In this document: positions 39,387 to 57,636 of the stretch, piece by piece
Position numbering within the stretch: position 1 is the stretch's first letter
Layout of the letters: every line of letters starts with the position of its first letter
Source of the DNA: an uncultured Verrucomicrobia subdivision 3 bacterium
GTDB taxonomy: Bacteria; Verrucomicrobiota; Verrucomicrobiia; Limisphaerales; UBA11358
Assembly: GCA_903917705.1 (NCBI GenBank)
Contig: CAIXBQ010000085.1
Span: 1 to 64,000, forward strand
Reading direction: 5' to 3'
Length of the DNA: 64,000 bases
Translations under genes and position numbers: made by a program
Notes under the pieces: model-generated
What the model saw: the letters and a program-made list of their open reading frames with translations, nothing else
What the model was told of the DNA's origin: nothing
Database searches by the model: none

Positions 39387-39663
39387 CCGACTTTCAGTTT
39401 CAAGCCAATCTCAACAACCATGCGGGCCGGAACTCCCGTGGTAAAATGGGCCGTTTTTGTTTTGGCTAACAGCCAACACGTTCCTGGGTGAAGATGAACA
39501 GTTGCCATTTTGGGTCAGTTATTGGTGGTGACAGAAGTTCTGGATGCTCGCGCCGTTTGCCGGTCGCTGAATCCGGTGAAGTTCTGGCGATAGTTGTCAA
39601 GGCTTGCAACGCATCCACCAGGTAATCCAGACTGCTGACAAAAGAATCAGGTTTGCCAACCTA

Positions 39664-41742
39664 ATGAAAAAATTGTTCCTCGGTTTTTGTCTAGGCTACG
39701 TCATGGTCGCCAATTCCTTAATGGCGGCTACCGAGGCTGCTTCGAAACCCAACATCATCTTTATTCTCACGGATGACATGGGTTGGGGTGATCTAGGAAT
39801 CTTTTACCAGAACGGCCGCGATTTCGCCGTCAACCGCAATCAGCCCGCTTTTGCCACGCCCAATCTGGACACGTTGGCCAGGCAGGGGGTTCAATTGCGC
39901 CGCCATTATACTGCCGCGCCCGTTTGTGCCCCGGCCCGCTCCTCACTGCTTTGCGGCGTTACGCAGGGACATTCCGGCGTGCGCGATAACCAGTTTGACT
40001 GGCCCCTTGAAAACAACCACACCCTCGCCACCGTCCTCAAGCAGGCGGGATACGCCACGGCGATCATTGGAAAATACGGACTGGATGGCAACGCGCTCGG
40101 TGCGCGATCCGCCGGCCCGTTGTTGCGGGGTTTTGATTACTTCTTTGGCTATCTCGACCACATGGCCGGCCATTATCACTACCCTAAGGAGGACAACGAG
40201 CATGGCAGCAAGAAAAAGTTCGGGCTTTACGACGGGACCAACGACATCATCGAACAGCTCGATAAATGCTACACCGCCGACCTGTGGACGGCCCGTGCGA
40301 AAAAATACATCGTTGATCAGCGGGCGGCCAATCCGGCGCAACCGTTTTTTCTCTTCCTCGCCTTCGATACGCCTCATGCGAAACTGGAGGTGCCCGCATG
40401 TGCTTATCCGGCCGGTGGCGGCATCCGCGGCGGCGTCCAGTGGATCGGTAAACCTCACGCGATGATTAACACGGCTATCGGCACCGTGGATACCTGGATT
40501 CACCCGGATTACACCAACGCCACCTGGGACGCGGATAATAACCCGGCCACGGCTGAGGTGGCTTGGCCGCTTGCTGAAAAACGCCACGCGACCATGATGC
40601 GCCGCCTCGACGATTGCGTGGGCGACTTGATGCAAACCCTCAAAGATCTCGGGTGCGACTCGAACACCATCGTAATCTTCACCTCTGACAACGGTCCGCA
40701 CAACGAAAGCGCTGGCGGCACCTACACCCAGAACCCGACCTTCTTCAATTCGTTTGGCCCGATGGACGGCATTAAGCGCGATTCCTGGGAAGGCGGCATG
40801 CGCGAACCGGCACTGGCGCGATGGCCGGGGCATTTCCCCGCCGGCACCACGAACCTGACGGCTTCGCAGTTTCAAGACTGGATGCCGACCCTTGCTGAAT
40901 TCGCCGGCTTGCCTGCCCCCGCCCGCAGTGATGGCGTATCCCTCGTTCCCACCCTGACCGGAACCGGCACGCAACGGCAGGGCGCAATCTACGTGGAATA
41001 CAATTTTAAGGGAAAAACCCCGGGCTACACGGAGTTTGACCCGTCGCACCGCAATGCTATTCGTAATCAGGAGCAAGTTGTCTATGTGGATGGCTACAAG
41101 GGTATCCGCTACGATATCACCTCAAATACCAACGATTTTATCATCTGCGACAGCCTTCACGATGCCCGCGAAACCACCAACCTGGCGGGAACCAGCGCTT
41201 ATTTCATCAGCCTCCAGCAGCGCATGAAAAATGCCGTTTTGCATATGCGCCGGCCTGATTCCACCGCGCCCAGGCCTTACGACGGGGACTTGATACCCGG
41301 CGTGTCCACGAACACCGTCACCGGCCTCACATGGCAGGCGTTTGAAGGCGGTTTCCCGTGGGTGCCCGATTTCACGCTGCTCTCGAACGTCGCTACCGGC
41401 CAGAGCACCAATGGCATTGATCTCTCTGTCCGCACCCGCAATGACAATATTGGTGTGCTCTACACCGGTTACATCAACGTCCCCGCCGATGGCACCTACA
41501 CGTTTTACCTGAACACCGACGGCCGCGCCTTTTTGCGCATCCATCAGGCGAGCGTATTGGATGCCGACTTCGGTTACGTCGGCGGCAGTGAGGTCAGCGC
41601 CACCATCAATCTTCAGGCCGGCCGTCATCCCGTCCGGCTTGGCTATGTGCGTGGTGCCGGCGGCGTGCCGTCGCTTACTCTGCAGTGGGCCAGTCGTACA
41701 ATTGTCAGACAAGTCGTGCCCGCCAGCGCATTTGGCCGGTGA
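39664..41742 (+). CDS. Secreted sulfatase with PA14 domain
   Basis: Type I sulfatase (692 residues). Signal peptide about 1-21. The metal-binding D37-D38 is in IIFILTDDMGWGDLG, and the cysteine to be turned into formylglycine is C88 in PVCAPARSSLL (C-x-P-x-R). The second metal site is IVIFTSDNGPHNES. A PA14 carbohydrate-binding domain occupies about 545-690 (GVLYTGYINVPADGTYTFYL). It would remove sulfate esters from polysaccharides or mucins. No anaerobic sulfatase-maturating enzyme sits next to it. The stop overlaps the yraN start, an unusual coupling. ATG 39664 gives the signal peptide. Confidence 0.95.
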   Translation: MKKLFLGFCLGYVMVANSLMAATEAASKPNIIFILTDDMGWGDLGIFYQNGRDFAVNRNQPAFATPNLDTLARQGVQLRRHYTAAPVCAPARSSLLCGVTQGHSGVRDNQFDWPLENNHTLATVLKQAGYATAIIGKYGLDGNALGARSAGPLLRGFDYFFGYLDHMAGHYHYPKEDNEHGSKKKFGLYDGTNDIIEQLDKCYTADLWTARAKKYIVDQRAANPAQPFFLFLAFDTPHAKLEVPACAYPAGGGIRGGVQWIGKPHAMINTAIGTVDTWIHPDYTNATWDADNNPATAEVAWPLAEKRHATMMRRLDDCVGDLMQTLKDLGCDSNTIVIFTSDNGPHNESAGGTYTQNPTFFNSFGPMDGIKRDSWEGGMREPALARWPGHFPAGTTNLTASQFQDWMPTLAEFAGLPAPARSDGVSLVPTLTGTGTQRQGAIYVEYNFKGKTPGYTEFDPSHRNAIRNQEQVVYVDGYKGIRYDITSNTNDFIICDSLHDARETTNLAGTSAYFISLQQRMKNAVLHMRRPDSTAPRPYDGDLIPGVSTNTVTGLTWQAFEGGFPWVPDFTLLSNVATGQSTNGIDLSVRTRNDNIGVLYTGYINVPADGTYTFYLNTDGRAFLRIHQASVLDADFGYVGGSEVSATINLQAGRHPVRLGYVRGAGGVPSLTLQWASRTIVRQVVPASAFGR

Positions 41743-42167: not shown

Positions 42168-42185
42168 AAATTATCGCCTGACAGC

Positions 42186-42214
42186 GTGACATTCCGGCGG
42201 CGGCCCGGTCTAAT
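42186..42214 (+). promoter_or_regulatory. Promoter of sigma factor operon
   Basis: GTGACA (42186-42191), 17-base spacer, TCTAAT (42209-42214). Transcription would begin near 42221, so GTG at 42220 cannot be the start and ATG 42232 or 42235 is used with almost no leader. It could instead be an ECF-type autoregulated promoter. Confidence 0.55.
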
Positions 42215-42231
42215 CAGCAGTGAAAGCCATC

Positions 42232-42795
42232 ATGATGAACGAGCCGGTTGCAGATCAAGGTGTTCAGGCCGGGATGCCCGCTGGATGGGTGTCTTCGGAA
42301 CTGGCCGCCCTTTACGACGAGCACAGCCGTGCGATCTTCTATCTTGCCCTGCGCTTTCTGGGTGACCCGCAAAAGGCCGAAGATGCCACGCATGATGTCT
42401 TTCTGAAGGCGTTCCGGCGGCTGGAACAATTTCGCGGGGATGCGTCGGTGCGCACCTGGCTTTATCGCATTGCCATCAACCGTTGCCAGAATATCTGCCA
42501 GTCCTGGCACAGCCGCCATATCTACGCCGATTCCGGGGATGCCGTCTTGGAAAATACGGCGGCCCGGACCGATTCGCCGCTGCGGGTGCTGGAAACCAAG
42601 GAACTCGGCCAGCGCATCCAGCATACGCTGGATGCCTTGTCCGAAGAATACCGGCTGCTGCTGTTGCTCGTCGCGGATGAGGAGTTGAGCTACGAGGAGA
42701 TCGCCGCGCTCGTCGGCCAGTCGGCCGATGCCGTGCGTGGCAAACTGCATCGCGCCCGCAAGGCCTTTGCCGCTCATTTTGAAAAAACTGTTTAA
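42232..42795 (+). CDS. ECF-family RNA polymerase sigma factor
   Basis: Sigma-70 family, extracytoplasmic function type (187 residues). Region 2 is LAALYDEHSRAIFYLALRFLGDPQKAEDATHDVFLKAFRRLEQF as a region, where DATHDVFLKAF is the core-binding and -10 recognition helix. Region 4 is RIQHTLDALSEEYRLLLLLVADEELSYEEIAALVGQSADAVRGKLHRARKAF as a region. It heads a 12-gene operon. No classical anti-sigma zinc protein follows; instead a 71-residue protein does. The promoter boxes place ATG 42232 as the start. Confidence 0.93.
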   Translation: MMNEPVADQGVQAGMPAGWVSSELAALYDEHSRAIFYLALRFLGDPQKAEDATHDVFLKAFRRLEQFRGDASVRTWLYRIAINRCQNICQSWHSRHIYADSGDAVLENTAARTDSPLRVLETKELGQRIQHTLDALSEEYRLLLLLVADEELSYEEIAALVGQSADAVRGKLHRARKAFAAHFEKTV

Positions 42796-42807
42796 GGAGA
42801 CTGAAGC

Positions 42808-43023
42808 ATGAAACAGCAAACCAAACTTGCCCAGAAGCAGGAATCGGTCGCAGAACAGCAGACGCAGTCGGCAAAGGAGTTTCCCAACTCGGACGAATTG
42901 CTGCGGTTCGATGCTGCGCAGACCGCCGTGCCCCCGGAAATCGCCCGGCGGCTGCAAAAATCGGCAGTGCGTCTTCCTCCTCCGCCTTCGCGGACATGGT
43001 GGAAAAACCTAATTGGTGGTTGA
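42808..43023 (+). CDS. Small hydrophilic protein after sigma factor
   Basis: Protein of 71 residues, rich in glutamine at the N-terminus (KQQTKLAQKQESVAEQQTQSA) and with SDELLRFDAAQTAVPPEIARRLQKS, ending in a Pro-rich turn and tryptophans (PPPPSRTWWKNLIGG). A strong AAGGAG lies 8 bases before the ATG. Position directly after a sigma factor suggests a partner or regulator of it, but no anti-sigma fold can be recognised and there is no membrane helix. Confidence 0.7.
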   Translation: MKQQTKLAQKQESVAEQQTQSAKEFPNSDELLRFDAAQTAVPPEIARRLQKSAVRLPPPPSRTWWKNLIGG

Positions 43024-43026
43024 AAG

Positions 43027-43683
43027 ATGAATATCTTCTGGCAACGGTTTCTGGCAGCGCTCACTCCCGGTGTGCGGGTTTTGTTGGGCCTGTTGATGTT
43101 GGTCTATCTGGTGGCAGTCACCGGAATAGTGTGCCATGCCTTTGATCTGTATGCCTGGCTGGCACTCAGTGGATCAAAGTTTTGGAGCGGACAAATTTGG
43201 CGGCTAGTGACCTATGCGCTGTTGCCGTTCGGAATAATGGATTTTGTCATGAATGGCGTCGCGCTGGTCGTGCTGGGTGGCATGCTCGAACGCCACTGGT
43301 CGCGTGGTGATTTTTTGCTTTATTGCGTGGTGGCGGCGGCGGGTGCCGGTATTGCAAAAGTGATTCTTCAATCTGCCAGTCCGACGCCCTTGGTGGGTGC
43401 CGCACCGATGATGTTTGGCCTGCTGATTGGCTGGGGCTTTCTCTGCGGTCGTGAAAATATTACCATCGCCATCTTTGGTGAGACAACCGTGTGGAAGCTG
43501 ATTCTGGTTGCCGCTGCCGTCAGCCTCCTGATCATGCTTTTCACCGGCGGAATGGCTGCGGCAATCATCATGGCTGGTGGCGGGGGGGCAGGATTTTTTT
43601 ACCTCTGGCTTAAACACAAATGGCTGATGAGCCGCACCGGCAGCGTGATTCACTCGGAGCGCATTAACCGGCTTGAGCTATGA
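43027..43683 (+). CDS. Rhomboid-fold pseudoprotease
   Basis: Polytopic protein of 218 residues with about six membrane helices in the rhomboid layout. QIWRLVTYALLPFGIMDFVMNGVALVVLGGMLERHW matches the L1-TM2 region of rhomboids and keeps the asparagine, but the TM2 histidine is missing. The serine motif GxSG is LVGAAPMMFGLL, so the catalytic serine is alanine, and the histidine of the last helix is absent in IIMAGGGGAGFFYLWL. It should therefore bind or chaperone membrane proteins rather than cut them. It overlaps the radical SAM gene start (ATGA). Confidence 0.75.
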   Translation: MNIFWQRFLAALTPGVRVLLGLLMLVYLVAVTGIVCHAFDLYAWLALSGSKFWSGQIWRLVTYALLPFGIMDFVMNGVALVVLGGMLERHWSRGDFLLYCVVAAAGAGIAKVILQSASPTPLVGAAPMMFGLLIGWGFLCGRENITIAIFGETTVWKLILVAAAVSLLIMLFTGGMAAAIIMAGGGGAGFFYLWLKHKWLMSRTGSVIHSERINRLEL

Positions 43684-44549
43684 TATGTGCTGCGCCAGAA
43701 AAGATTCTCCGCGCGGCGCAAATGCGTCCGGCGCTCGCAGGCGAACGCGCCCATCGCGCACGGGCAATGCTGGCGGATTGCCGGCTGTGCGCCCACGACT
43801 GCGGCGTCAACCGGCTTGCCGGCGAAACGGGGTTGTGCCACGCCGGCGCCGGGACGCGGTTTTTTTCCGCGCAGGCGGAAGTCTCGGATGAGTTGGAATT
43901 GATTCCGACGTTCGCCGTGGCGTTTAGCGGTTGTGACCTGCGTTGTGATTTTTGCATCACCGGTGCGGAAAGCTGGAATTCGCGCGCCGGTCTCGGCTTC
44001 GATGCCGCTGCGATGGCCGCGCGGGCGAAGGTCGCCCTGGAAAACGGTGCGCGTACCATCATGGTGCTGGGCGGCGAGCCGACCATTCACCTGCCCGCCG
44101 CGTTGGAATTTGTTTCGCTGGTGCCGGCGACGGCCAGATTGATCTGGAAAACCAATGCCCATGGCACGGCGCCGGCTCGGGCGCTGCTTGACGGGATGTT
44201 CGATGTCTGGCTGGCGGATTTCAAATTTGGCAACGATGATTGTGCGCAGCGGTTGGCAAAAGTCCCCAATTACGTCTGCGTGGTTCGGGAAAATCTGCTT
44301 TGGGCCAGGGAACATAGCGAATTGATCGTCCGCCATCTGCTCATGCCCGGCCACGTCGAGTGTTGCTGGCGGCCGGTGGCGGAATGGTTGTCGGAATATT
44401 TGCCTGGTGTTAAGTTGAATTTGCGCGCCGGTTTCTGGCCGGCTTGGCAGGCGCGGCGGCATGGGGAATTACAGAAATCCCTGTCGGTCAAGGAAGTTGA
44501 TGCTGCTTTTGGGCTGGCGCATGAACTGGGTTTGGATTTAATTCCATGA
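43680..44549 (+). CDS. Radical SAM protein, PflX/COG1313-like
   Basis: Iron-sulfur enzyme (289 residues) related to pyruvate formate-lyase activating enzymes. The radical SAM cluster motif is C85-x3-C89-x2-C92 in FSGCDLRCDFCITG. A second cysteine set precedes it (C34, C37, C41, C53 in CRLCAHDCGVNR and GLCHAG), as in the COG1313 group. VLGGEPTIH is the SAM-binding GGE-like motif. The substrate of this group is unknown. Start overlaps the pseudo-rhomboid and the end overlaps a 68-residue protein gene, so the three are translated together. Confidence 0.88.
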   Translation: MICAAPEKILRAAQMRPALAGERAHRARAMLADCRLCAHDCGVNRLAGETGLCHAGAGTRFFSAQAEVSDELELIPTFAVAFSGCDLRCDFCITGAESWNSRAGLGFDAAAMAARAKVALENGARTIMVLGGEPTIHLPAALEFVSLVPATARLIWKTNAHGTAPARALLDGMFDVWLADFKFGNDDCAQRLAKVPNYVCVVRENLLWAREHSELIVRHLLMPGHVECCWRPVAEWLSEYLPGVKLNLRAGFWPAWQARRHGELQKSLSVKEVDAAFGLAHELGLDLIP

Positions 44550-44752
44550 AACCGCAGATGATAAAAGGGCTCGTAAACCCCTCCGCTGGAAAGTCGGTGA
44601 GCGAGATTTTGATATTAGCCGACGGTAAAATCTTGGCGCATAATCTTTCCCCGGCGATGGCTGGTGTGCTGGCGGCATTGGATCCGGCAGACGCGGCCAT
44701 GAGCCGGCGGGCGAAGCGGAAAAAAACTTTACATAATGAACTTCCAGACTGA
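44546..44752 (+). CDS. 68-residue protein coupled to radical SAM gene
   Basis: Small basic protein: IKGLVNPSAGKSVSEILILADGKILAHNLSPAMAGVLAALDP as its core, then a basic tail [15 protein letters not shown]. It has no membrane segment or signal. Start overlaps the radical SAM stop by 4 bases and its end overlaps the Ycf46 gene by 17 bases. The close coupling suggests function with one of them; being a substrate of the radical SAM enzyme is a possibility only. Confidence 0.7.
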   Translation: MKPQMIKGLVNPSAGKSVSEILILADGKILAHNLSPAMAGVLAALDPADAAMSRRAKRKKTLHNELPD

Positions 44753-46289
44753 AATTGAGACGCTCATCCGGGCGCGTTATCCCATCCTTTACGTTATTTC
44801 TAGTGAGGAAATGCGAGTGCAAAACGTGATCGTGGAGATCGCCAAAAAACGTCAGAAAAAAGTGTTTGAGTGGAGCTATAGCACCGGCATCGTGCCCGCC
44901 GGGACTTCTATCCAGTCGCACAAAAACCGCAATGCTGCCACCAAGGATCCGTTGATGGCGCTGGACCAGGTGATTGAGCAGGTCGAGCCGGCGATTTATG
45001 TGTTCAAGGATTTCCATCCGTTTCTGACCAAGAACAATTTTGCCATCGTTCGCAAGCTCAAGGAAATCGCGCTGCACCTGAAAAATAGTTTCAAGACGAT
45101 TGTGCTCATATCGCCGATGATGGAAATTCCTCCCGAGTTGGAGAAGGAAATCACCGTGCTGAACTATCCGCTCCCGTCGCGCGAGGATTTGAGCGAACTG
45201 CTGGATAAGATTATTGCGGATGTCGCGCAGTTCAAGCAGGTGAAAATCGAGCTCGACGATGCCGGGCGCGAACGCCTGTTGTCCGCCGCGCTCGGTTTGA
45301 CGTTGGGTGAGGCGGAAAATGTCTTTGCCAAGATCATCGTCAAGGATGAGCGCTTGAGTGGCGAAGATGTGAACGAGGTCTTTGCCGAGAAGCAGCAGAT
45401 CATCCGCAAAAGCGGCTTGCTGGAATATTACACCACGGAAGACAGTTTTTCGAACATCGGCGGCCTGGCCGTTTTGAAGGACTGGCTGGACAAGCGTGCG
45501 GCGGCGTTTACGAAGGAAGCCCGGGCGTTTGGCTTGCCCGCCCCGAAGGGGATTTTGATGCTCGGCGTGCAGGGCTGCGGGAAAAGTTTGTGCGCGAAGG
45601 CTGTTTCCAATCAATGGCAGTTACCGCTGCTGCGTTTCGACATGGGCCGGATGTTCGGCAGTCTGGTCGGTTCGTCGGAAGAAAATGTGCGCCGTGCCAT
45701 CGCCGTGGCGGAATCAGTTGCCCCGGCGATTCTCTGGGTGGATGAAATTGACAAGGCCTTTGCTGGTTCACAGGGTTCCGGCGCGACGGACGGTGGCACC
45801 ACGGCGCGTGTTTTCGGCACTTTTTTGACATGGCTATCGGAAAAAACTGCGCCGGTGTTTGTGGTGGCGACGGCCAATGATATATCCCAACTGCCGCCGG
45901 AACTGCTGCGCAAAGGTCGTCTTGACGAAATCTTTTTTGTGGATTTGCCAAGCCAGGACGAGCGTCGGGATATTTTCCGCATTCACATCAACCGGCGCGG
46001 CCGGGATGCGGAACAATTCGATATGGCTGCCTTGGCGGAGGCGAGCAAGGATTGCAGCGGCGCGGAAATTGAGGAGGCCATTAATAGTGCGCTTTACGAC
46101 GCGTTTTACTCAAGCCAGGAAATCACCACCGAATCCGTGCTGGCGACGTTGGCGCAGACCGTGCCGCTTGCCAAGACCATGGACGAGCAGATCAACCGCC
46201 TGCGCAACTGGGCGGAGGGGCGCGCGCGGAATGCCAGCGTGCCGCGGGACACGCATAAAGCCAGCACCGTGCGCCGGATGGAATTGTGA
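44736..46289 (+). CDS. Ycf46-type AAA+ ATPase
   Basis: AAA+ ATPase (517 residues) of the Ycf46 kind known from plastid and cyanobacterial genomes. The N-terminal 230 residues form the degenerate first domain ([38 protein letters not shown] as a region). The second domain is active: Walker A GVQGCGKS at 277-284, Walker B ILWVDEID with D336-E337, sensor VVATAND and arginine-finger region [13 protein letters not shown]. Proteins of this family remodel protein partners. Downstream lie DUF1257 and DUF2997 genes, the usual partners. Confidence 0.92.
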
Positions 46290-46301
46290 CCGGGTTAATC
46301 T

Positions 46302-46607
46302 ATGGACAACAGGTTCGACTATTTCAAAAACCGTCGGTTTGTGCCGATTTTCTTCATCACGCTGGTGGCGATTTTTGCCGGACCGTTGGTCATTGGCATT
46401 ATTCTCCAGGTAGCCGACAGTCGCGATTTGCTCAAGTATTGGCCGTTCGTTCTGATGGTAATTGGCTTGTGGCTGCTGGTGCTGATCGGGCGCAGTCTGC
46501 GGGAGATGCGGGTGCGGCGGTTGAATTGCTATAAAACTTCGCCATTATCGCGTGACGAAATGGCGAAAGCCCGGTCTAAACTTATATCCAGAACGGTTTT
46601 TAAATAA
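46302..46607 (+). CDS. Small two-helix membrane protein
   Basis: Protein of 101 residues with two membrane helices (about 13-35, FVPIFFITLVAIFAGPLVIGIIL, and 46-63, YWPFVLMVIGLWLLVLIG) and a basic cytosolic tail (RRLNCYKTSPLSRDEMAKARSK). No family recognised. It sits 12 bases after the ycf46-like gene and 3 before DUF1257, so it is part of the operon and may tether the ATPase system to the membrane; that is inference. Confidence 0.75.
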   Translation: MDNRFDYFKNRRFVPIFFITLVAIFAGPLVIGIILQVADSRDLLKYWPFVLMVIGLWLLVLIGRSLREMRVRRLNCYKTSPLSRDEMAKARSKLISRTVFK

Positions 46608-46610
46608 AAT

Positions 46611-47084
46611 ATGAGTGCGGTTTGCATTTTAACTCCGGTCGTCATCATGGCATGGCCGGCCTTCAGCGCGGCGGTGGTTGCGGCGGCCAGCTCGCTCGGT
46701 TATCAGGTCGCCGCCGAAGTGAACAGCCAGCGTCCTGGCGAGGCCGTTCGCAAGCAAACCGGCGGCGTTCAGTTGGAGATTGAGCGCAGCGAGGTGGTGA
46801 CAAATCAGCTTGGTCGGGACCAGCGGATTGCCGTGTCGCGTGAAGGCGTGACGGTGACTTTTTCTCGAGATGCCCGCGGCAAGGCTTCCCTGTGTGTGAT
46901 CGGCAACGGCCGGAGCGATGAGGCGTTGCGGGCGCTGGGCGAGGAATTGAGCCAGGCGGTCGTGCAGCAATATGTTTATCAAAAACTGATGGACGAAATG
47001 CGATCGCGCGGCTTTAACGTGGTCGAGGAAGAAGTGAGCCAGGATCGCTCCATTCGTCTGAAAGTCCGGCATTGGGAGAATTGA
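46611..47084 (+). CDS. DUF1257 (Ycf35-like) protein
   Basis: Cytosolic protein of 157 residues. The C-terminal half VVQQYVYQKLMDEMRSRGFNVVEEEVSQDRSIRLKVRHW (as a region) is the well-conserved end of DUF1257/Ycf35 proteins, and AAVVAAASSLGYQV is the N-terminal helix. The family accompanies Ycf46 in many genomes but its activity is unknown. Three bases separate it from the DUF2997 gene. The first 12 residues are unusually hydrophobic for the family; the start could be slightly further in. Confidence 0.82.
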   Translation: MSAVCILTPVVIMAWPAFSAAVVAAASSLGYQVAAEVNSQRPGEAVRKQTGGVQLEIERSEVVTNQLGRDQRIAVSREGVTVTFSRDARGKASLCVIGNGRSDEALRALGEELSQAVVQQYVYQKLMDEMRSRGFNVVEEEVSQDRSIRLKVRHWEN

Positions 47085-47086
47085 TT

Positions 47087-47287
47087 ATGCCCCAACGAGA
47101 ATTTGAAATAACCATCGGCAGGACCGGTGAGGTCGAGTTGCATGTCAAAGGCTTCAAGGGCAAGGGTTGTCTCGCCGCCGTGAAAATTTTTGAGGAAATT
47201 GTCGGCGAGATGAAGTCGCAGCAGCAGACCAGTGAGTTCTATGAGCCGGAAGAACAGGTGCAGTATCGCATTGACCAGCGGCATTGA
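47087..47287 (+). CDS. DUF2997 protein
   Basis: Protein of 66 residues: FEITIGRTGEVELHVKGFKGKGCLAAVKIFEEIVGEM covers the whole DUF2997 motif (ITI-x-x-x-G-x-V-x-x-x-V-x-G-x-x-G-x-x-C). The conserved cysteine C30 or so is present. In other bacteria this family is encoded with DUF1257 and Ycf46, as here. It is probably a small partner subunit. The start ATG follows the DUF1257 stop by 2 bases. Confidence 0.85.
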   Translation: MPQREFEITIGRTGEVELHVKGFKGKGCLAAVKIFEEIVGEMKSQQQTSEFYEPEEQVQYRIDQRH

Positions 47288-47320
47288 TGAAATGGCTGGA
47301 TAAAATCATAAACCGGAAGC

Positions 47321-48223
47321 ATGGCCCAATCTTTCATTCCTGAAGAAGATTCAGCGTATTATCCGCCGCGCGCGCGCTGGTATTCGGTGTTTTTTTATTT
47401 CGGCAATAATTTGCGCAGGCGACTGGCGCTTGACCGGTTGGCGCTGCCCCGCGAAATGAAAATCGGCGAACTGGTCGCCGGTTTTTTTGTGCCCGGATTG
47501 GCTGTCTGGTTCCGCGGGCCGAGGCTCTGGGGTCGGGCTGCCCTGACTGCCAGCGCGGTGCTGTTTTTGATTTTCATCGTCTGGCTGGGCTATCCGGCCG
47601 CCAACTTGGCGTTCGGTCTGCTGGTTTCACTTCATTGCACGGGGTTTGTCTATTATTGCAATCCGCTCATGGCCACCGAACCATTCCGGTCGCGGCTGGC
47701 GTTTACACTCTTATTATTGCTGGCGATTGGCTTGTTGTTGTATGTGCCGGCCCGCAGCTTCATTCAGGGCCATTGTCTGACGCCGTTGCAAATGAACGGG
47801 CAGGTGGTTGTCGTGCAGCGGATTTTTCAAGCTCGTCACCTTCAGCGCGGGGACTGGATCGCTTATGCATTGCATGACGAGGAACAGGGCGAGGCGCACA
47901 ACGGCGGTGCCGTGTGGGTTCGTGCTGGTATGGGCTTGGGGCCGGTGCTGGCGGTGGCGGGGGACCAGGTGGTTATTTCCTCAAATACGTTTTCGGTGAA
48001 TGGTATATCACACCCGAGCTTGCCGCACATGCCGGGGGCGGGTTCCTTGACCGTGCCGGAAAATCATTGGTTCATCTGGCCAAACCTTGATATAAGCGGA
48101 CACGGAAATGTGAGTGAAGCCAGCATCAGCAGCACCATGTTGGACATGGCCAGCGTGAATGCGACGCAGTTTTTTGGGAAGCCGCTGCACCGCTGGTTCT
48201 GGCGGAAACAAATTTTACCATGA
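47321..48223 (+). CDS. Degenerate signal peptidase I (S26)-like protein
   Basis: Membrane protein (300 residues) with about four N-terminal helices (RAALTASAVLFLIFIVWLGYP and others) and a C-terminal domain of S26 type. The SM-x-P box reads GHCLTPLQMNGQVVVVQRI: the serine nucleophile is cysteine and the methionine is leucine. Box RGDWIAY is kept. The KRVxGxPGD box is GPVLAVAGDQVVI, so the catalytic lysine is lost, and the last box is WFIWPNLDISGHG. It is likely inactive or mechanistically changed. Stop overlaps the TPR gene start. Confidence 0.78.
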   Translation: MAQSFIPEEDSAYYPPRARWYSVFFYFGNNLRRRLALDRLALPREMKIGELVAGFFVPGLAVWFRGPRLWGRAALTASAVLFLIFIVWLGYPAANLAFGLLVSLHCTGFVYYCNPLMATEPFRSRLAFTLLLLLAIGLLLYVPARSFIQGHCLTPLQMNGQVVVVQRIFQARHLQRGDWIAYALHDEEQGEAHNGGAVWVRAGMGLGPVLAVAGDQVVISSNTFSVNGISHPSLPHMPGAGSLTVPENHWFIWPNLDISGHGNVSEASISSTMLDMASVNATQFFGKPLHRWFWRKQILP

Positions 48224-48999
48224 GCCGTTTCATCAACCTGGAATTTGCCGACGGGTCCGACAACCAGCTTCAGCCGGAGCAAAAGGCGCTGGTCAAGGAT
48301 GAGGCCTATTACCTGGCCGAGGCGCGGACGGCCTTTGAAAATGGCAATTTCGAGCAGGGCTTGCGCTTTTATTCAAAAGTTCTCGAATACAATCCCAAGA
48401 ATGCCGCCGCGTGGACCGGCCAGGTGCGCATGCTGGTTGAATTGGGCGAGTTTCGCGAGGCCAAGCTGTGGGCGGACAAGGCGCTCGAACGATTCCCCAA
48501 TGAGCCGGAGTTGCTCGCCGCCAAGGCGGTCGCGCTCGGCCGCAGTGGCGATTTGCAGGGCGCGTTGGCGTTCTCCGACGCATCCATTGAGGAACGTGGT
48601 GATACGCCCTATGTCTGGCTGGCGCGCGGCGATGTTCTGCTGGCGCGGGCCGAGCCGCGGGCGGATTACTGTTTTGAAAAGGCGCTCCTGCTCGCTCCGC
48701 GCGACTGGTTCATCGCCTGGCTCGCGGCCCGCATCCGGTTTTATTACGAACAATTTGTCCTGTCCCTCAAGCTGATTCAGCAGGCCGTGGAATTGAACCC
48801 CGGAAACTTCCTGCTGTGGCTGGAGCAGGGGCATTGCCAGCAGGCGATCGGCCTGGTCGGAGCGGCGGAGATTTCCTTCACGCAGGCGCGGCAGTTGAAT
48901 CCGCGGAGCGAGGAGGCGGATCATGCGCTGTTCCGGATTTCCCAGGCGGGACTGCTGGCGCGGCTGCGGGGAAAATTGCGGGAATTATTCAAACGATGA
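48220..48999 (+). CDS. TPR protein
   Basis: Soluble protein of 259 residues made of about six tetratricopeptide repeats from residue 27 on (ARTAFENGNFEQGLRFYSKVLEYNP; AKLWADKALERFPNEPELLAAKAVALGRSGDLQGAL as a region; IQQAVELNPGNFLLWLEQGH). No signal peptide. Such proteins act as scaffolds. It overlaps both the degenerate peptidase and pilT genes by 4 bases, which ties the type IV pilus ATPase to the rest of the operon. Confidence 0.88.
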   Translation: MSRFINLEFADGSDNQLQPEQKALVKDEAYYLAEARTAFENGNFEQGLRFYSKVLEYNPKNAAAWTGQVRMLVELGEFREAKLWADKALERFPNEPELLAAKAVALGRSGDLQGALAFSDASIEERGDTPYVWLARGDVLLARAEPRADYCFEKALLLAPRDWFIAWLAARIRFYYEQFVLSLKLIQQAVELNPGNFLLWLEQGHCQQAIGLVGAAEISFTQARQLNPRSEEADHALFRISQAGLLARLRGKLRELFKR

Positions 49000-50057
49000 G
49001 CTCTGAAAACTTGAACCGGCTGCTGTCGGCGGTGAATGAATTTGATGCGTCGGATCTGCATCTGGTGGCCGGCGTGCCGCCGGCGTTTCGCGTGAACGGC
49101 GAGATCATCATCGCCGACGAGGACGCGCTGACCGAGGAGGAGATCACCGAGATGGCCAACGGCCTGATGAACGAGCCGCAGCGGAAAAAATTTGAGCAGG
49201 AATGGGAACTGTGTATTTCCATTCTGCACAGTGCCGCCGGCCGCGTTCGCGCCACTTTCTATCGGCGCAATAACCATCCGGAATTAAGCTTCCGCTTTTG
49301 CGGCGACAAAATCGCTGCGCGCCGGGAGCTGGGATTGCCCGACAAGATTGACGAGCTGGCGCGGAAGCCGAACGGCCTGGTTTTGATCACCGGCCCCACC
49401 GGCGCGGGCAAGACGACGACGCTGAACTATCTTGTGGACCTCATCAATAGTGAGCGCCGCTGCAAAATTGTCACGATTGAGGACCCGATCGAATTTGTCC
49501 ACGAAAACAAGCGTGCTATCGTGGTCCAGCAGGAGGTGCTGACCGATGTCCGCTCATTCAACCGCGCGCTGATCCATGTGCTGCGGCAGGATCCGGATGT
49601 GATTGTGGTCGGCGAAATGCGCGACCATGAGGCGATCGCCACCGCCATGACGGCGGCGGAAACCGGCCATCTGGTGCTGGCCACCATGCACTCGCCGAAT
49701 GTTTCCCATGCCCTGGAGCGGATCATCGGCGTCTTTGAAGGCAGCGCGCAGAAGCAGATTATTTTGCAGCTTTCCAACGCGCTGCAGGGGATCATTGCCC
49801 AGGACCTGTTGCCGTCGGCGGATCGCACGCGGCGCGTGCTCGCCTATGAATTGCTCGTGGCCACCGGCGCGGTGCGGAATCTGATCCGGGAAAACCAGCT
49901 GCACCACTTGGAAAATACGCTTCAGATGGGGCGCAAGGATGGCATGGTGCTCATGGATAATCACCTCTACGACTTGTATTGCAAATGCGCCATCACCTAC
50001 GACACGGCCATCAGCCGCGCCCGCCATCCCGACCGGATCACCCGGCAGAAAACCTGA
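48996..50057 (+). CDS. pilT: PilT-type retraction ATPase
   Basis: Type IV pilus twitching ATPase family (353 residues). N-terminal PAS-like domain with SDLHLVAGVPPAFRVNG, Walker A GPTGAGKT at 133-140, Asp box VTIEDPIEFVH, Walker B VIVVGEMRD and the PilT-type AETGHLVLATMHS. The AIRAGE motif typical of canonical PilT is not evident near the C-terminus, so it may be a PilU-like or variant ATPase. It ends the sigma factor operon; no pilin or other pil genes are nearby. ATG 48996 overlaps the TPR stop. Confidence 0.9.
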   Translation: MSSENLNRLLSAVNEFDASDLHLVAGVPPAFRVNGEIIIADEDALTEEEITEMANGLMNEPQRKKFEQEWELCISILHSAAGRVRATFYRRNNHPELSFRFCGDKIAARRELGLPDKIDELARKPNGLVLITGPTGAGKTTTLNYLVDLINSERRCKIVTIEDPIEFVHENKRAIVVQQEVLTDVRSFNRALIHVLRQDPDVIVVGEMRDHEAIATAMTAAETGHLVLATMHSPNVSHALERIIGVFEGSAQKQIILQLSNALQGIIAQDLLPSADRTRRVLAYELLVATGAVRNLIRENQLHHLENTLQMGRKDGMVLMDNHLYDLYCKCAITYDTAISRARHPDRITRQKT

Positions 50058-50167: not shown

Positions 50168-50563
50168 TTACCGCGCCAGTTGCAGTGCGATTTCCTTTTC
50201 AATTTCGTGTACGAGGTCGAGGTCGCGCGTGCCCCATTTGGTGCGGGCCTGCACATCCACTTGCGTGGTCTTGGGGTCTACGCTCTCGACGCGCACCCAG
50301 ACCTTGCGGCCGTTGACGCGGGCGAGCAGTGAGCGGACGGCGTTGGTGCTGTCATGCGGGATGTATTCGTTGATCATCACGCCGTCGGTCTGGATGACGG
50401 CGACGGATGCCTGATAAACCTGATCCAGCGTGCGCTGGTAGCGGCCGGCCACGGAATCCTTGCCCCAGGTGGTTGCAAACGTGTGGGTGTCGCTCACGGT
50501 GCCCACGCAGCCTGCGGTGAGGAAGCTGGCGGCGGCCAGGGCGGCAAAAAGTGTCTTTTTCAT
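50168..50563 (-). CDS. DUF3568-like lipoprotein
   Basis: Exported lipoprotein of 131 residues. Signal MKKTLFAALAAASFLTAGC ends at a lipobox cysteine (Cys19). The mature part is one compact alpha/beta domain (RTLDQVYQASVAVIQTDG; GRKVWVRVESVDPKTTQVDVQAR; DLVHEIEKEIALQL) that matches the DUF3568 pattern. The start ATG 50563 gives the signal; longer upstream frames are not needed. Function unknown. It has a strong terminator. Confidence 0.8.
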   Translation of the reverse strand: MKKTLFAALAAASFLTAGCVGTVSDTHTFATTWGKDSVAGRYQRTLDQVYQASVAVIQTDGVMINEYIPHDSTNAVRSLLARVNGRKVWVRVESVDPKTTQVDVQARTKWGTRDLDLVHEIEKEIALQLAR

Positions 50564-50711
50564 ATCGCCTTCAGGACAATAAAAAAAGCCGCGCGCGTCA
50601 AGCACCATTCTCAGTCTTTCCCTGGGAGTCCAATGGGGGAATTACTAAAACCCCCGGCCGGAGGTGGTTTTTTCCGGGCGGTCACCCTTGGTTTGCCGCC
50701 GTGGTTTAGCT

Positions 50712-54154: not shown

Positions 54155-54397
54155 TATGAAAATGCGCTGGCGTTGAAATGGGGCGGTCCTGTTTGCCAAG
54201 CTTTGGAATAAGTTGAGTTTGCTGTTACGGGTGGGGTGGCTTGTAGAGCTTTCCCCCGGAAAACATTTTTCTTAATCGGTGAAGCCTTGGTTTTTAACTG
54301 AAGTGGGAAAGCTGGCTTGGCTCCGGGGCCTATGTCGGATATTGGTAAAGAGGTCCCTGACCTGGTTGCTCTGACGTTCGATGGTTCTGTGAATAAT
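54155..54397. other. Non-coding remainder after secA element
   Basis: No gene, repeat or promoter of confidence is seen between the palindromic element and the sialidase start. A frame in phase with the sialidase extends back to 54317 but adds no signal peptide and is not favoured. Confidence 0.5.
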
Positions 54398-55606
54398 ATG
54401 AAATCCACTATTTTCTTCTGCCTGGGGAGCGCCCCCGCGTTGGCATTAATCATCGCTCTTCCAGCTTTGGCCGGGACGGCACCGGCGCAATTGCCATTGG
54501 TACCCCTACCAGAAGGGGAGCGGCCAGCTGCTGAAATTCCGCTTGAGTCTACTCCGTTCGTCAGCGGCACCGGGGGTTACCACACTTTCCGGATCCCTGC
54601 CATCGTGGTGAATGGCGCCGGTCACTTGTTGGCTTTTTGTGAAGGCCGTAAGCACGGCGGCGGTGATGCTGGAGCTATTGACAGCGTTTGCAAGGAAAGC
54701 TCCGATGGTGGCAAAACTTGGGGCAGCCTTCGTTTGATCTGGGATGATGGCACCAACACCTGTGGCAACCCCTGCGTTGTTCGCGATGCCGGGACGGGTG
54801 TCTTCTGGCTGCTGCAGACTTGGAATCGCGGTGAGGACCAGGAGCGTCGGATCATTAATGAGACCAGTAAAGACACTCGCCGGGTGTATGTCCTCAGCTC
54901 CAGCGATGACGGTCATGCCTGGACCGGACCGCGCGAGATCACGGCGAACGTGAAACTCACCAACTGGACTTGGTATGCCACCGGGCCGGGGGCCGGCATC
55001 CAGTTGCAACGTGGCCCGAACAAGGGGCGGCTGATCATCCCGTGCGATCATATCGAGGCCGGAACCAAGCGGACATTTTCGCATGTCATCTATTCGGATG
55101 ATCATGGGCGGAACTGGAAATTGGGCGGCTCGACCCCATCCGATCGGGTCAATGAATGTGAGGTGGTTGAACTGGCGGACGGCCGACTCATGCTCAATCT
55201 GCGCAATTATCGCTCGGCCCCGCAACCCCGCCAGAGCGCCGTCAGCCGTGATGGCGGCCTGACTTGGGAAGATCAGAAAACCGTGCCTGAACAGGTTGAT
55301 CCCATCTGTCAGGCCAGCATCCGGCGGTTGACCTGGCCGGCGGGGGGGAAACCTGGGGTCCTGTTGTTTTCCAATCCCGCCAGCAACCGGCGCGAGCGCA
55401 TGACCGTTCGTGCCAGTTTCGATGAGGGCAGCACTTGGCCTGTGGCCCGGTTGTTGAGCCCGCTTCCCGCTGCCTATTCGTGCCTGGTGGCAATGCCAGA
55501 TGGCTCCATCGGCGTTCTTTACGAATCCGGGACCAAAAGCGCTTATCAATCCATCGTGTTCTCCTCATTTTCAATGGATTGGCTTAAATCAGCGGGCGTT
55601 AAATGA
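54398..55606 (+). CDS. Sialidase/BNR-repeat exo-alpha-sialidase (GH33-like)
   Basis: Secreted six-bladed beta-propeller (402 residues). A signal peptide covers about 1-26. The arginine signature is YHTFRIPAIVV, and four Asp boxes are visible: SSDGGKTWG, SSDDGHAWT, SDDHGRNWK and SRDGGLTWE. NECEVVELADGRLMLNLRNY contains the expected glutamate and arginine region. It would remove terminal sialic acid from glycans. The heparinase-like lyase and ROK kinase genes follow on the same strand across short gaps. ATG 54398 is chosen for the signal peptide. Confidence 0.92.
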   Translation: MKSTIFFCLGSAPALALIIALPALAGTAPAQLPLVPLPEGERPAAEIPLESTPFVSGTGGYHTFRIPAIVVNGAGHLLAFCEGRKHGGGDAGAIDSVCKESSDGGKTWGSLRLIWDDGTNTCGNPCVVRDAGTGVFWLLQTWNRGEDQERRIINETSKDTRRVYVLSSSDDGHAWTGPREITANVKLTNWTWYATGPGAGIQLQRGPNKGRLIIPCDHIEAGTKRTFSHVIYSDDHGRNWKLGGSTPSDRVNECEVVELADGRLMLNLRNYRSAPQPRQSAVSRDGGLTWEDQKTVPEQVDPICQASIRRLTWPAGGKPGVLLFSNPASNRRERMTVRASFDEGSTWPVARLLSPLPAAYSCLVAMPDGSIGVLYESGTKSAYQSIVFSSFSMDWLKSAGVK

Positions 55607-55740: not shown

Positions 55741-57636
55741 ATGAATATTCCTTTTCCATTCCTTGTGTGCCCCTTGCTGTGCGTTGTCGTTTGCGGTTTT
55801 ACCGCGTTCGCGGCGGAAACGCCCGACCCCGCCCGCATTCGCGAAATCGCCGCGCTGCTGCCGGCGCAGCCCGCCGGTTTCGGCCAGCCCATTACCAATC
55901 GCGCCGCATGGGTGGCATTCGCCGCCCGCCATCCGGAACTGGACGATGTGATTCCACACGCGGCTAGGCTGGCCGCCCAGCCGTTGCCCGCCCAGCCGGA
56001 CTCACTGTTTCTGGAGTATTCCCAAAATGGCAATCGCACCCGGTGGCAAAAGGTGTCCGGCGCCCGCCGCGAACGCATTCAAATCTTCACCCTTGCTGAG
56101 TGCCTCGAAAACCAAGGTCGGTTCCTTGCGCCGCTGGAGACTGCCATCGCTGCGCTTTGCGCCGAACGGACGTGGGTGCTGTCCGCGCACGACCCCGGCT
56201 TGAAAAATTTTCGCGGCGAAACCGTTGAAATCGACCTTGGCGCGGCGGGCTTGGGTGTGGAATTGGCCACGGCTGATTATCTGCTCGGCCATCGTCTGTC
56301 GCCAGCGACGCAGAAGCTGCTCCGCGATAATCTGGAGCGCCGGATCTTCGCGCCGTATCGCGCCGCCGTGACTGGCGCCCGCCCCGAATTCTGGTGGATG
56401 CACGGCCATAACAACTGGAATTCGGTATGTCTCGACGGGGTTACCGGGGCGGCTCTGGCAACCATCGGTCCGGCGGCGGAGCGTGCGTGGTTTATTGCCG
56501 TCGCGGAGAAAAACATCAATTCCTATCTCGTCGGCGGCTTTACGTCCGACGGTTATTGCGTCGAAGGGCTGGGCTATTGGAACTATGGCTTCGGTAATTT
56601 TTCTTGGCTGGCCGAAAACATCCGGCAGGCCACTGGCGGCAAAATCGATTTGCTGTCGGCGCCGATGGCTGCCGGGCCTGCGCTATTCGGTCTCCGTTCG
56701 GAAATCATCAACGGCGTTTATACGACCATTGCGGATTGCCATCCGGGCGAAAGACCATCGGGCATCCTGATGAATTATTTGGGTCTGCGGTTTGGCTTGG
56801 ATCGCGCGCCTTGGCGGGAGGCCGAATTGGCCGGCGGGCTATACGAGAAAATGGCAATGGGCTTCCTGCCGGCGGAGCTGCCGTCGATTCGCTCCGCCAA
56901 CGATTCCGCCGGAATGTCGCTGCGTACTTGGTTCCCCGATGGCGGTGTTTTGATCTGCCGCCCCGGTGTCACTGCGGGGATTCCGTTCGCCGCCGCCATC
57001 AAGGGGGGTAACAACGGTGTCAGCCACGGACACAACGATGTGGGCAGCTTCAGCGTCGTGGTCGGAAAAACGATGGTCGTCTGTGATCCTGGCGGCGAAG
57101 TTTACACCAAGCGCACCTTTAGCTCGCATCGCTATGACAGCAAGGTGCTCAACTCGTTCGGCCACGCCGTGCCGGTGGTCGCCGGACAATTGCAGCGCGC
57201 GGGGGTTGAGGCGCATGGCGTGGTGACCGCAAAAATTTTCACGGCGGAGGCTGACACGCTCACGCTGGATATGCGTTCAGCTTACGCGGTGGCGGACCTG
57301 CAGAAGCTCGAGCGCACGTTTGCGTTTCATCGGGGCCAGTCGCCATCGCTCGAAGTGCGCGACGTAGCAAAGTTCGCCGGGCCGGAGAACTTTGAAACCG
57401 CGCTGGTTACCTGGGGCGGCATCCGCCGGGTGGGCGAAAATGAATTGGAACTCACAGACGGTGAAGCGGCTGTCCGCGTCACCATTGACACGCAGGGTCG
57501 CGCGTTTCACCTCAAACAAGAAACGATTGACGAGGAGGTTTCCTCCAGGCGCCAGCCGGTGCGCCTGGGTATCGCGCTGGATGCGAAGGTTTCTGCGGCC
57601 GCCATCACCCTGAGGATTTCGCCGGTTGTGAAATAG
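55741..57636 (+). CDS. Heparinase II/III-family polysaccharide lyase
   Basis: Secreted protein of 631 residues. Signal peptide about 1-24. The N-terminal (alpha/alpha) toroid holds FWWMHGHNNWNSVCLDGVTG and GGFTSDGYCVEGLGYWNYGFGNF, and the beta-sandwich domain begins with NGVSHGHNDVGSFSVVVGKTMVVCDPGGEVYT as a region, the typical Heparinase II/III pattern with His and Asn. It should cleave uronic acid-containing polymers by beta-elimination. Substrate not fixed. It sits between a sialidase and a sugar kinase. Confidence 0.9.
   Translation: MNIPFPFLVCPLLCVVVCGFTAFAAETPDPARIREIAALLPAQPAGFGQPITNRAAWVAFAARHPELDDVIPHAARLAAQPLPAQPDSLFLEYSQNGNRTRWQKVSGARRERIQIFTLAECLENQGRFLAPLETAIAALCAERTWVLSAHDPGLKNFRGETVEIDLGAAGLGVELATADYLLGHRLSPATQKLLRDNLERRIFAPYRAAVTGARPEFWWMHGHNNWNSVCLDGVTGAALATIGPAAERAWFIAVAEKNINSYLVGGFTSDGYCVEGLGYWNYGFGNFSWLAENIRQATGGKIDLLSAPMAAGPALFGLRSEIINGVYTTIADCHPGERPSGILMNYLGLRFGLDRAPWREAELAGGLYEKMAMGFLPAELPSIRSANDSAGMSLRTWFPDGGVLICRPGVTAGIPFAAAIKGGNNGVSHGHNDVGSFSVVVGKTMVVCDPGGEVYTKRTFSSHRYDSKVLNSFGHAVPVVAGQLQRAGVEAHGVVTAKIFTAEADTLTLDMRSAYAVADLQKLERTFAFHRGQSPSLEVRDVAKFAGPENFETALVTWGGIRRVGENELELTDGEAAVRVTIDTQGRAFHLKQETIDEEVSSRRQPVRLGIALDAKVSAAAITLRISPVVK

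Follow-up and report, generated by a model that had tools for sequence, protein, structure and literature searches.

The 64-kb stretch of DNA analysed here (the window), part of a metagenome-assembled genome (MAG) of Verrucomicrobiota, contains at positions 42232-50057 a single run of 12 open reading frames (ORFs), all on the + strand, whose order recurs among relatives far above chance and which is inherited as a unit across the phylum. From first to last, the genes encode an extracytoplasmic function (ECF) sigma factor, the small protein g2, a rhomboid-fold membrane protein, a radical S-adenosylmethionine (SAM) enzyme, the small protein g5, a Ycf46-like tandem AAA ATPase, the membrane protein g7, a DUF1257 (Ycf35-like) protein, a DUF2997 protein, a signal-peptidase-like membrane protein, a TPR protein, and a PilT-family ATPase. 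With a probability of about one half, we read this operon as a dedicated ECF sigma regulon encoding a membrane-associated AAA+ remodelling machine that docks by its tails and is driven by its own PilT motor. Compared with an earlier note on this DNA, what is new is the C-terminal tag common to rhomboid and AAA protein, the separation of g5 from the radical SAM enzyme, the conservation of the promoters, and the distribution over plasmids and phages. Ycf46, Ycf35 (DUF1257), and DUF2997 are old and widespread, without established function in the literature found, and their function becomes directly testable in bacteria because the operon supplies partners, a promoter-defined regulator, and a mutable five-residue tag.

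Conservation and regulation of the operon

The comparison of gene order covered 30 near-genome loci and 80 public-genome loci, annotated with profiles made from the window genes. The order sigma-g2-(rhomboid)-radical SAM-g5-AAA-(g7)-DUF1257-DUF2997-signal peptidase-TPR-PilT was seen again in dozens of Verrucomicrobiota loci, together with reduced versions consisting of sigma-g2-AAA-TPR-PilT or just sigma-g2-AAA; individual modules can move or be lost. A core devoid of sigma and g2 and running from radical SAM through AAA, DUF1257, DUF2997, signal peptidase, and TPR to PilT is found, whole or partial, in deep Verrucomicrobiota (L127, L134, L139, L141) and in Planctomycetota (L107, L109, L373, L374, L376), and the rhomboid accompanies it in L107, L127, L134, L139, and L376. 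A conserved order limited to Ycf46-DUF1257-DUF2997 had been set beforehand as the refuting outcome; the comparison in the two phyla found one that extends well beyond this trio. In the window, the successive junctions measure +12, +3, -4, -4, -17, +12, +3, -4, +33, -4, and -4 bases, so that the earlier note was right that no gap is larger than 33 bases and wrong that most genes overlap by 4 bases, since only 5/11 junctions are at -4 and one at -17, for six overlaps in total.

Co-inheritance is also visible where the operon is split. Specifically, an orthologue of the operon PilT (66-100% identity) occurs in 17/17 AAA-bearing genomes, several times on another contig, and in 0/6 AAA-less genomes, where only paralogues at no more than 41% are found (Fisher p 1e-5). 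The signal-peptidase-like protein is restricted to AAA-bearing genomes, except for one weak match in G057, and both DUF1257 and the radical SAM enzyme are located elsewhere in the genome where they are missing at the locus. Moreover, a sigma orthologue (60-70%) is encoded elsewhere in the genome for 5/5 tested public loci devoid of an adjacent sigma gene, an exception to this retention being G038, which is 82% complete. The test discriminates because a control, the approximately 410-aa transmembrane TPR gene that frequently follows PilT, is present in AAA-less genomes too, and on the same grounds this gene was rejected as an operon member. Its product adjoins the operon in many genomes (L045, L054, L061, and others), with a sigma-type promoter before the gene in L045 and L054.

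The sigma factor is matched in both sigma regions 2 and 4, and a conserved promoter-like site suggests that it is autoregulated. The pattern GTGAC-N17-GTC.(A/T)A, also written GTGAC-N17-GTCYAA, occurs in 60/72 distinct regions upstream of sigma, with a spacer of 17 bases in every instance of a search permitting 14 to 22. When a weight matrix trained on these sites was run over the window, positions 42183 (P1) and 46549 (P2) scored 37.3 and 24.0, and the next site 5.1. P2-type sites precede DUF1257 in 33/47 upstream regions, including 18/30 in which no g7 was found, and in 0/6 of the sigma-less deep loci; given this internal promoter, the operon probably forms two transcription units under one sigma factor, and the conserved SRDELxKARSKL end of g7 is, in part at least, the P2 promoter. 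Weaker sites stand before TPR in the reduced loci L064, L072, and L155. Genomes have at most four occurrences of the strict pattern, and the regulon looks narrow because the operon site recurs and the other occurrences are at about chance expectation. Promoter-like sites at sigma and DUF1257, combined with the retention of sigma elsewhere in the genome, support the previous proposal that the genes are under one regulator; a scan for sigma-70 promoters gave a result no better than shuffled sequence. The g2 protein, whose conserved end reads EE(M/L)LR..D..T.VPP.IA.RL..S....WW and which matches no Pfam family, is a candidate anti-sigma factor on account of its position next to sigma and its amphipathic WW(R/K) end.

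A C-terminal tag on two unrelated proteins

In its strict definition, [RK][MLVI]E[LFM]-COOH, the tag terminates 59/113 AAA proteins and 23/26 rhomboids of the collected loci, as opposed to 1/1307 other genes, and is found on none of the remaining operon proteins. Synonymous codons vary, so that selection on the tag acts at the protein level, ruling out a DNA-level artefact of overlapping genes. In Verrucomicrobiota, the tag is kept or lost together with the DUF1257/DUF2997/radical SAM module: counted per genome, 55 have both tag and DUF1257, 27 neither, 3 the tag only, and 0 DUF1257 only, and for the radical SAM enzyme the tally is 56 both, 28 neither, 2 the tag only, and 1 radical SAM only. 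The tag state requires 15 changes on the tree, at least 7 of them forced, and the independent pairs differing in the tag all point one way, with the tag on the side of DUF1257 and radical SAM. Among 20 Planctomycetota loci fetched once the rule had been framed, the tag was present in 6/7 with DUF1257 and 0/13 without it (p 2e-4). L162, which has lost the module, carries a DRMEL remnant past a stop, L087 carries a DUF1257 remnant, and in the clade of L058, L067, L069, and L071 the AAA protein is untagged and the rhomboid still tagged. If true, a tag that an AAA ATPase has in common with a membrane pseudoprotease, and that has repeatedly disappeared along with its module, would amount to a new code for docking or modification in a protein-remodelling machine.

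On Bacillota plasmids, relatives of the AAA protein are grouped with DUF1257, DUF2997, and a radical SAM protein of small size, and Actinomycetota plasmids have the same grouping except that a 141-aa gene occupies the DUF1257 position; such relatives accompany a radical SAM enzyme in Spirochaetota, and DUF1257 and DUF2997 in Cyanobacteriota, Nitrospirota, and phages. On three actinobacterial plasmids with radical SAM, the AAA protein ends GRRIDF, GRTFEF, and GRQIDF, and the adjacent membrane HHH protein ends GRTLDL, GRRLEF, and SRRLDL; the Treponema AAA protein ends VRKLEM, and contig L183 has tags on the AAA protein and on two membrane proteins. Within 133 dereplicated loci of a viral collection, 28 AAA proteins carry the strict tag, mostly with no radical SAM or DUF1257 nearby, and the tally of strict tag by radical SAM shows no association; phage homologues contradict the tag as a universal marker of radical SAM. 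A viral partner family of approximately 270 aa ends hydrophobic-[DE]-[LFMIV] in 16/29 cases, versus 34/1555 other neighbours. The tag is therefore widespread in this AAA family, and no single reader accounts for every case.

Two further groupings were noticed on mobile elements. In L303, L339, and related viral contigs, the Ycf46-like gene travels with the approximately 270-aa protein and an approximately 113-aa HSHDGG protein, a grouping that resembles gp91-gp95 of Mycobacterium phage Bora; on the proteobacterial plasmids L173, L175, and L176, a different, untagged AAA ATPase is directly followed by a small radical SAM protein and by giant proteins with PIN or AAA domains.

A possible remodelling machine and its alternatives

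In a confident AlphaFold2 (AF2) model, the AAA protein matches D1-D2 of p97/Cdc48 along its full length (Foldseek, E 3e-23), and Walker A (GVQGCGKS) and Walker B (WVDE) motifs occur in the second AAA half only, the first having neither, the model being that of a Cdc48-like double AAA protein with a dead first domain. This predicted fold is the source of the word "remodelling" and lends support to the membrane-associated remodelling or assembly system that had been proposed from the letters alone. The AAA protein would form a Cdc48-like double ring whose first ring is without ATPase activity, threading or disassembling clients. Short AAA+ C-terminal motifs thought to dock a partner include HbYX of proteasomal ATPases and the p97 C-terminal tail, and the AAA and rhomboid tails could dock in a similar way to the proteasomal motifs, although the residues differ ([RK]-hydrophobic-E-L/F) and the same tag stands on a second, membrane protein. 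The adaptor that binds them would most likely be DUF1257/DUF2997 or the radical SAM/g5 enzyme. Moreover, the two protease-like membrane proteins might function as client binders or anchors rather than as proteases, the PilT paralogue and the TPR protein would provide the link to a dedicated motor, which possibly acts on type IV pili, and g2 would keep sigma inactive until a signal is received.

Several observations weigh against the docking machine. The DUF1257 fold has a low-confidence model and no structural match; the operon PilT is linked to pili by family membership only; and AAA, TPR, and PilT are kept in reduced genomes although the tag, the radical SAM enzyme, and the signal-peptidase-like protein are gone. 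Most of the genomes compared are MAGs, and gene absences are partly assembly gaps. Only 6 of the independent pairs lie on branches with good support, with p 0.03 for DUF1257. Furthermore, some AAA proteins of cyanobacterial and other plasmids are untagged beside DUF1257 and DUF2997, and many phage homologues are tagged without DUF1257, DUF2997, or a nearby radical SAM, so that neither DUF1257/DUF2997 nor radical SAM is a universal tag reader.

More tentatively, the Ycf46-type AAA proteins of Planctomycetes-Verrucomicrobia-Chlamydiae (PVC) bacteria, plasmids, and phages may represent a machine class of their own. The ATPase and a membrane or accessory partner of unrelated fold would share a C-terminal code, [RK]-x-hydrophobic-[DE]-[LF]-COOH, and the DUF1257/DUF2997/radical SAM module would either read this code or write it chemically; in Verrucomicrobiota, the machine would have turned into a private ECF regulon and be coupled to a PilT motor.

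Among the alternatives, the least doubtful, albeit itself rather unlikely, is a stress-induced accessory of type IV pili, with PilT and TPR as an alternative retraction ATPase, the AAA protein as a disassemblase for pilus or secretin subunits, and the pseudo-proteases holding prepilin-like clients. No other gene accompanies AAA as constantly as PilT (all 17 genomes), which also persists in reduced operons; however, PilT-family ATPases occur in all relatives, operon-bearing or not, and pilin, secretin, and PilC genes are absent from the operon. Slightly less probable is that the tag is a modification site, recognised and covalently modified by the radical SAM enzyme with g5 at the C-terminal ends of both AAA protein and membrane partner, similarly to radical SAM peptide maturases. 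The joint tracking of tag and radical SAM in Verrucomicrobiota (the 56/28/2/1 tally above), the combination of radical SAM with tags on both AAA and membrane partner, seen on three actinobacterial plasmids and on one contig of the viral collection, and the fact that the nearest solved structure of the radical SAM enzyme is PFL activase, whose substrate is a protein, would all accord with it. Conversely, L155 is untagged despite an intact radical SAM enzyme and g5, three tagged Planctomycetota loci have no radical SAM at the locus, tagged phage homologues have none nearby, the strict tag is missing in 15/16 viral-collection loci with radical SAM, and g5 matches no family.

A further, unlikely reading makes the AAA protein its own tag reader: the partner tail would be a handle for unfolding, comparable to SsrA in the case of ClpX, and the AAA tail an autoinhibitory copy. 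AAA is the sole component common to every tag-bearing system, and the similarly ended viral partner family would fit such a handle, but many Verrucomicrobiota loci have a tagged AAA protein and no rhomboid, and the tag disappears along with DUF1257/radical SAM. Still less credible is a defence or mobile-element conflict system: plasmids from several phyla, as well as phages, do carry relatives of AAA, DUF1257, DUF2997, and radical SAM, and the AAA domain alone is distantly similar to IetA, yet the set is chromosomal, narrowly regulated, and co-inherited, and its PADLOC matches are generic ATPase domains only. Lastly, that unrelated genes are adjacent by chance deserves almost no credence, as the co-inheritance of parts in split operons, the conserved order, and the promoter sites contradict it, even if modules can individually be lost or moved.

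Component proteins, known systems, and genomic setting

Features of the operon in the window
Feature	Position	Strand	Basis
P1, ECF-type promoter GTGAC-N17-GTCTAAT before sigma gene	42183..42215	+	Position weight matrix 37.3, top site of window
ECF sigma factor, 187 aa, dedicated regulator	42232..42795	+	Domain matches; orthologues elsewhere in genomes
g2, 71 aa, candidate soluble or membrane-peripheral anti-sigma	42808..43023	+	Alignment, adjacency to sigma
Rhomboid-fold pseudoprotease	43027..43683	+	Rhomboid (PF01694) E 2e-12
Rhomboid C-terminal tag RINRLEL-COOH	43660..43680	+	End of rhomboid protein
Radical SAM enzyme, COG1313/PflX-like	43680..44549	+	Radical_SAM/Fer4_12 match; CX3CX2C and N-terminal Cys cluster
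g5, 68 aa, detached C-terminal domain of radical SAM enzyme	44546..44752	+	Fused homologues
Ycf46-like tandem AAA ATPase, first AAA domain without Walker A	44736..46289	+	AF2 pLDDT 86; Foldseek
AAA C-terminal tag RRMEL-COOH	46272..46286	+	Protein ends VRRMEL
g7, 101-aa membrane protein, near relatives only	46302..46607	+	Alignment; most conserved C-terminal motif overlies P2
P2, second sigma-type promoter before DUF1257, within g7 3' end	46549..46581	+	Position weight matrix 24.0
DUF1257 (Ycf35-like) protein, extended N-terminus	46611..47084	+	Pfam E 6e-7, 30.2 vs 22.2 bits
DUF2997 protein, TTG start 47081 or ATG 47087	47081..47287	+	Pfam E 5e-14, 52.3 vs 24.1 bits
Signal-peptidase-I-like membrane pseudo-peptidase, without Ser or Lys	47321..48223	+	S26 sub-threshold
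TPR protein	48220..48999	+	TPR domain match
PilT-family ATPase, dedicated paralogue	48996..50057	+	TIGR01420 380.2 vs 319.1 bits

Pfam and NCBIfam upheld the first assignments of the sigma, rhomboid, radical SAM, AAA, DUF1257, DUF2997, TPR, and PilT proteins. The serine-less state claimed for the rhomboid was likewise confirmed, with LVGAAP (GAAP) in place of the GxSG serine, and the TM6 His is lost as well in the window lineage; because the rhomboids of L107, L127, and L134 retain the GASG serine and the TM6 His, the window protein descends from a likely active protease. It shares the Rhomboid fold of rhomboid proteases and rhombosortase but not their catalytic Ser and His, and it does not reach the rhombosortase model (25 vs 84 bits). 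The signal peptidase had been described as lysine-less: the Lys is indeed gone, the Ser is gone too, and its assignment to S26 is only sub-threshold (17.1 vs a cut-off of 22.9). HCLTPL and RAGMGLG stand where the Ser-Lys dyad would be, the catalytic Ser is found in none of the inspected homologues, and the deep-lineage proteins carry an N-terminal CxxC...CxxC ribbon.

In the radical SAM enzyme, the CX3CX2C cysteines C85, C89, and C92 are invariant. The g5 protein is its C-terminal domain split off as a separate gene, as indicated by the fusion of g5 onto the C-terminus of the enzyme in five loci outside the sigma-bearing group (L107, L109, L127, L139, L141). The idea, conceived by eye, that g5 is a PqqD-like/RRE recognition element was rejected, with no match among 37 PqqD/RRE members or PDB sequences, and aligning g5 or the radical SAM C-domain to DUF2997 (hhalign) gave 80% but over just 19 columns. 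In L032, L033, and L037, an approximately 325-aa protein of unknown family sits between radical SAM and g5.

The AAA protein owes the name Ycf46 to similarity, and relatives on cyanobacterial plasmids were detected. The cluster DUF2997-ycf35-fed7 is known from cyanobacteria (PMC4284462), and red algal plastids from freshwater show depletion of ycf35 as well as ycf46 (PMC5940233). The operon shares the Ycf46, DUF1257 (Ycf35), and DUF2997 families with cyanobacteria and red-algal plastids and adds to that set sigma, radical SAM, the pseudo-proteases, TPR, PilT, a divergent extended DUF1257, and the C-terminal tag. The structural match to Cdc48/p97 spans both AAA domains; unlike p97, the operon protein has no first-domain Walker A and no N-terminal cofactor domain, and it is bacterial and operon-encoded. 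Its similarity to the anti-phage system IetAS is confined to the second AAA domain, the operon has no subtilisin partner, and an identification as IetA was rejected (NF042959, 78.3 vs a cut-off of 510 bits). The operon PilT resembles the retraction ATPases PilT/PilU, passing the TIGR01420 cut-off and retaining Walker A and the RNLIRE motif; it differs in always accompanying the AAA gene rather than lying beside pilus genes, and is approximately 32-40% identical to the other PilT paralogues of the same genome. No description of the operon or of the tag was found in the literature, an absence that is unproven because subscription journals were largely outside the search.

A second, divergent Ycf46-like clade (L132, L133, L142, and L128-L143) has canonical DUF1257 and DUF2997 and neither sigma nor PilT nor pseudo-proteases; several of its members have C-terminal tails of basic-IAA or KAA, and L142 also carries DUF3150.

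The AAA gene of the window is 96% identical to loci labelled Limisphaerales or Verrucomicrobia subdivision 3, and the host is a soil/freshwater bacterium. The operon is preceded by a UPF0102 (YraN) gene and followed by a convergent DUF3568 lipoprotein-like gene (50168-50608), which in relatives often remains close to PilT, and then by secA, named by eye. Further genes on the flanks, also named by eye, encode a sulfatase, a sialidase-like (BNR) protein, and a large secreted heparinase/alginate-lyase-like protein (39604-41742, 54317-55606, 55741-57636) and probably serve unrelated glycan degradation.

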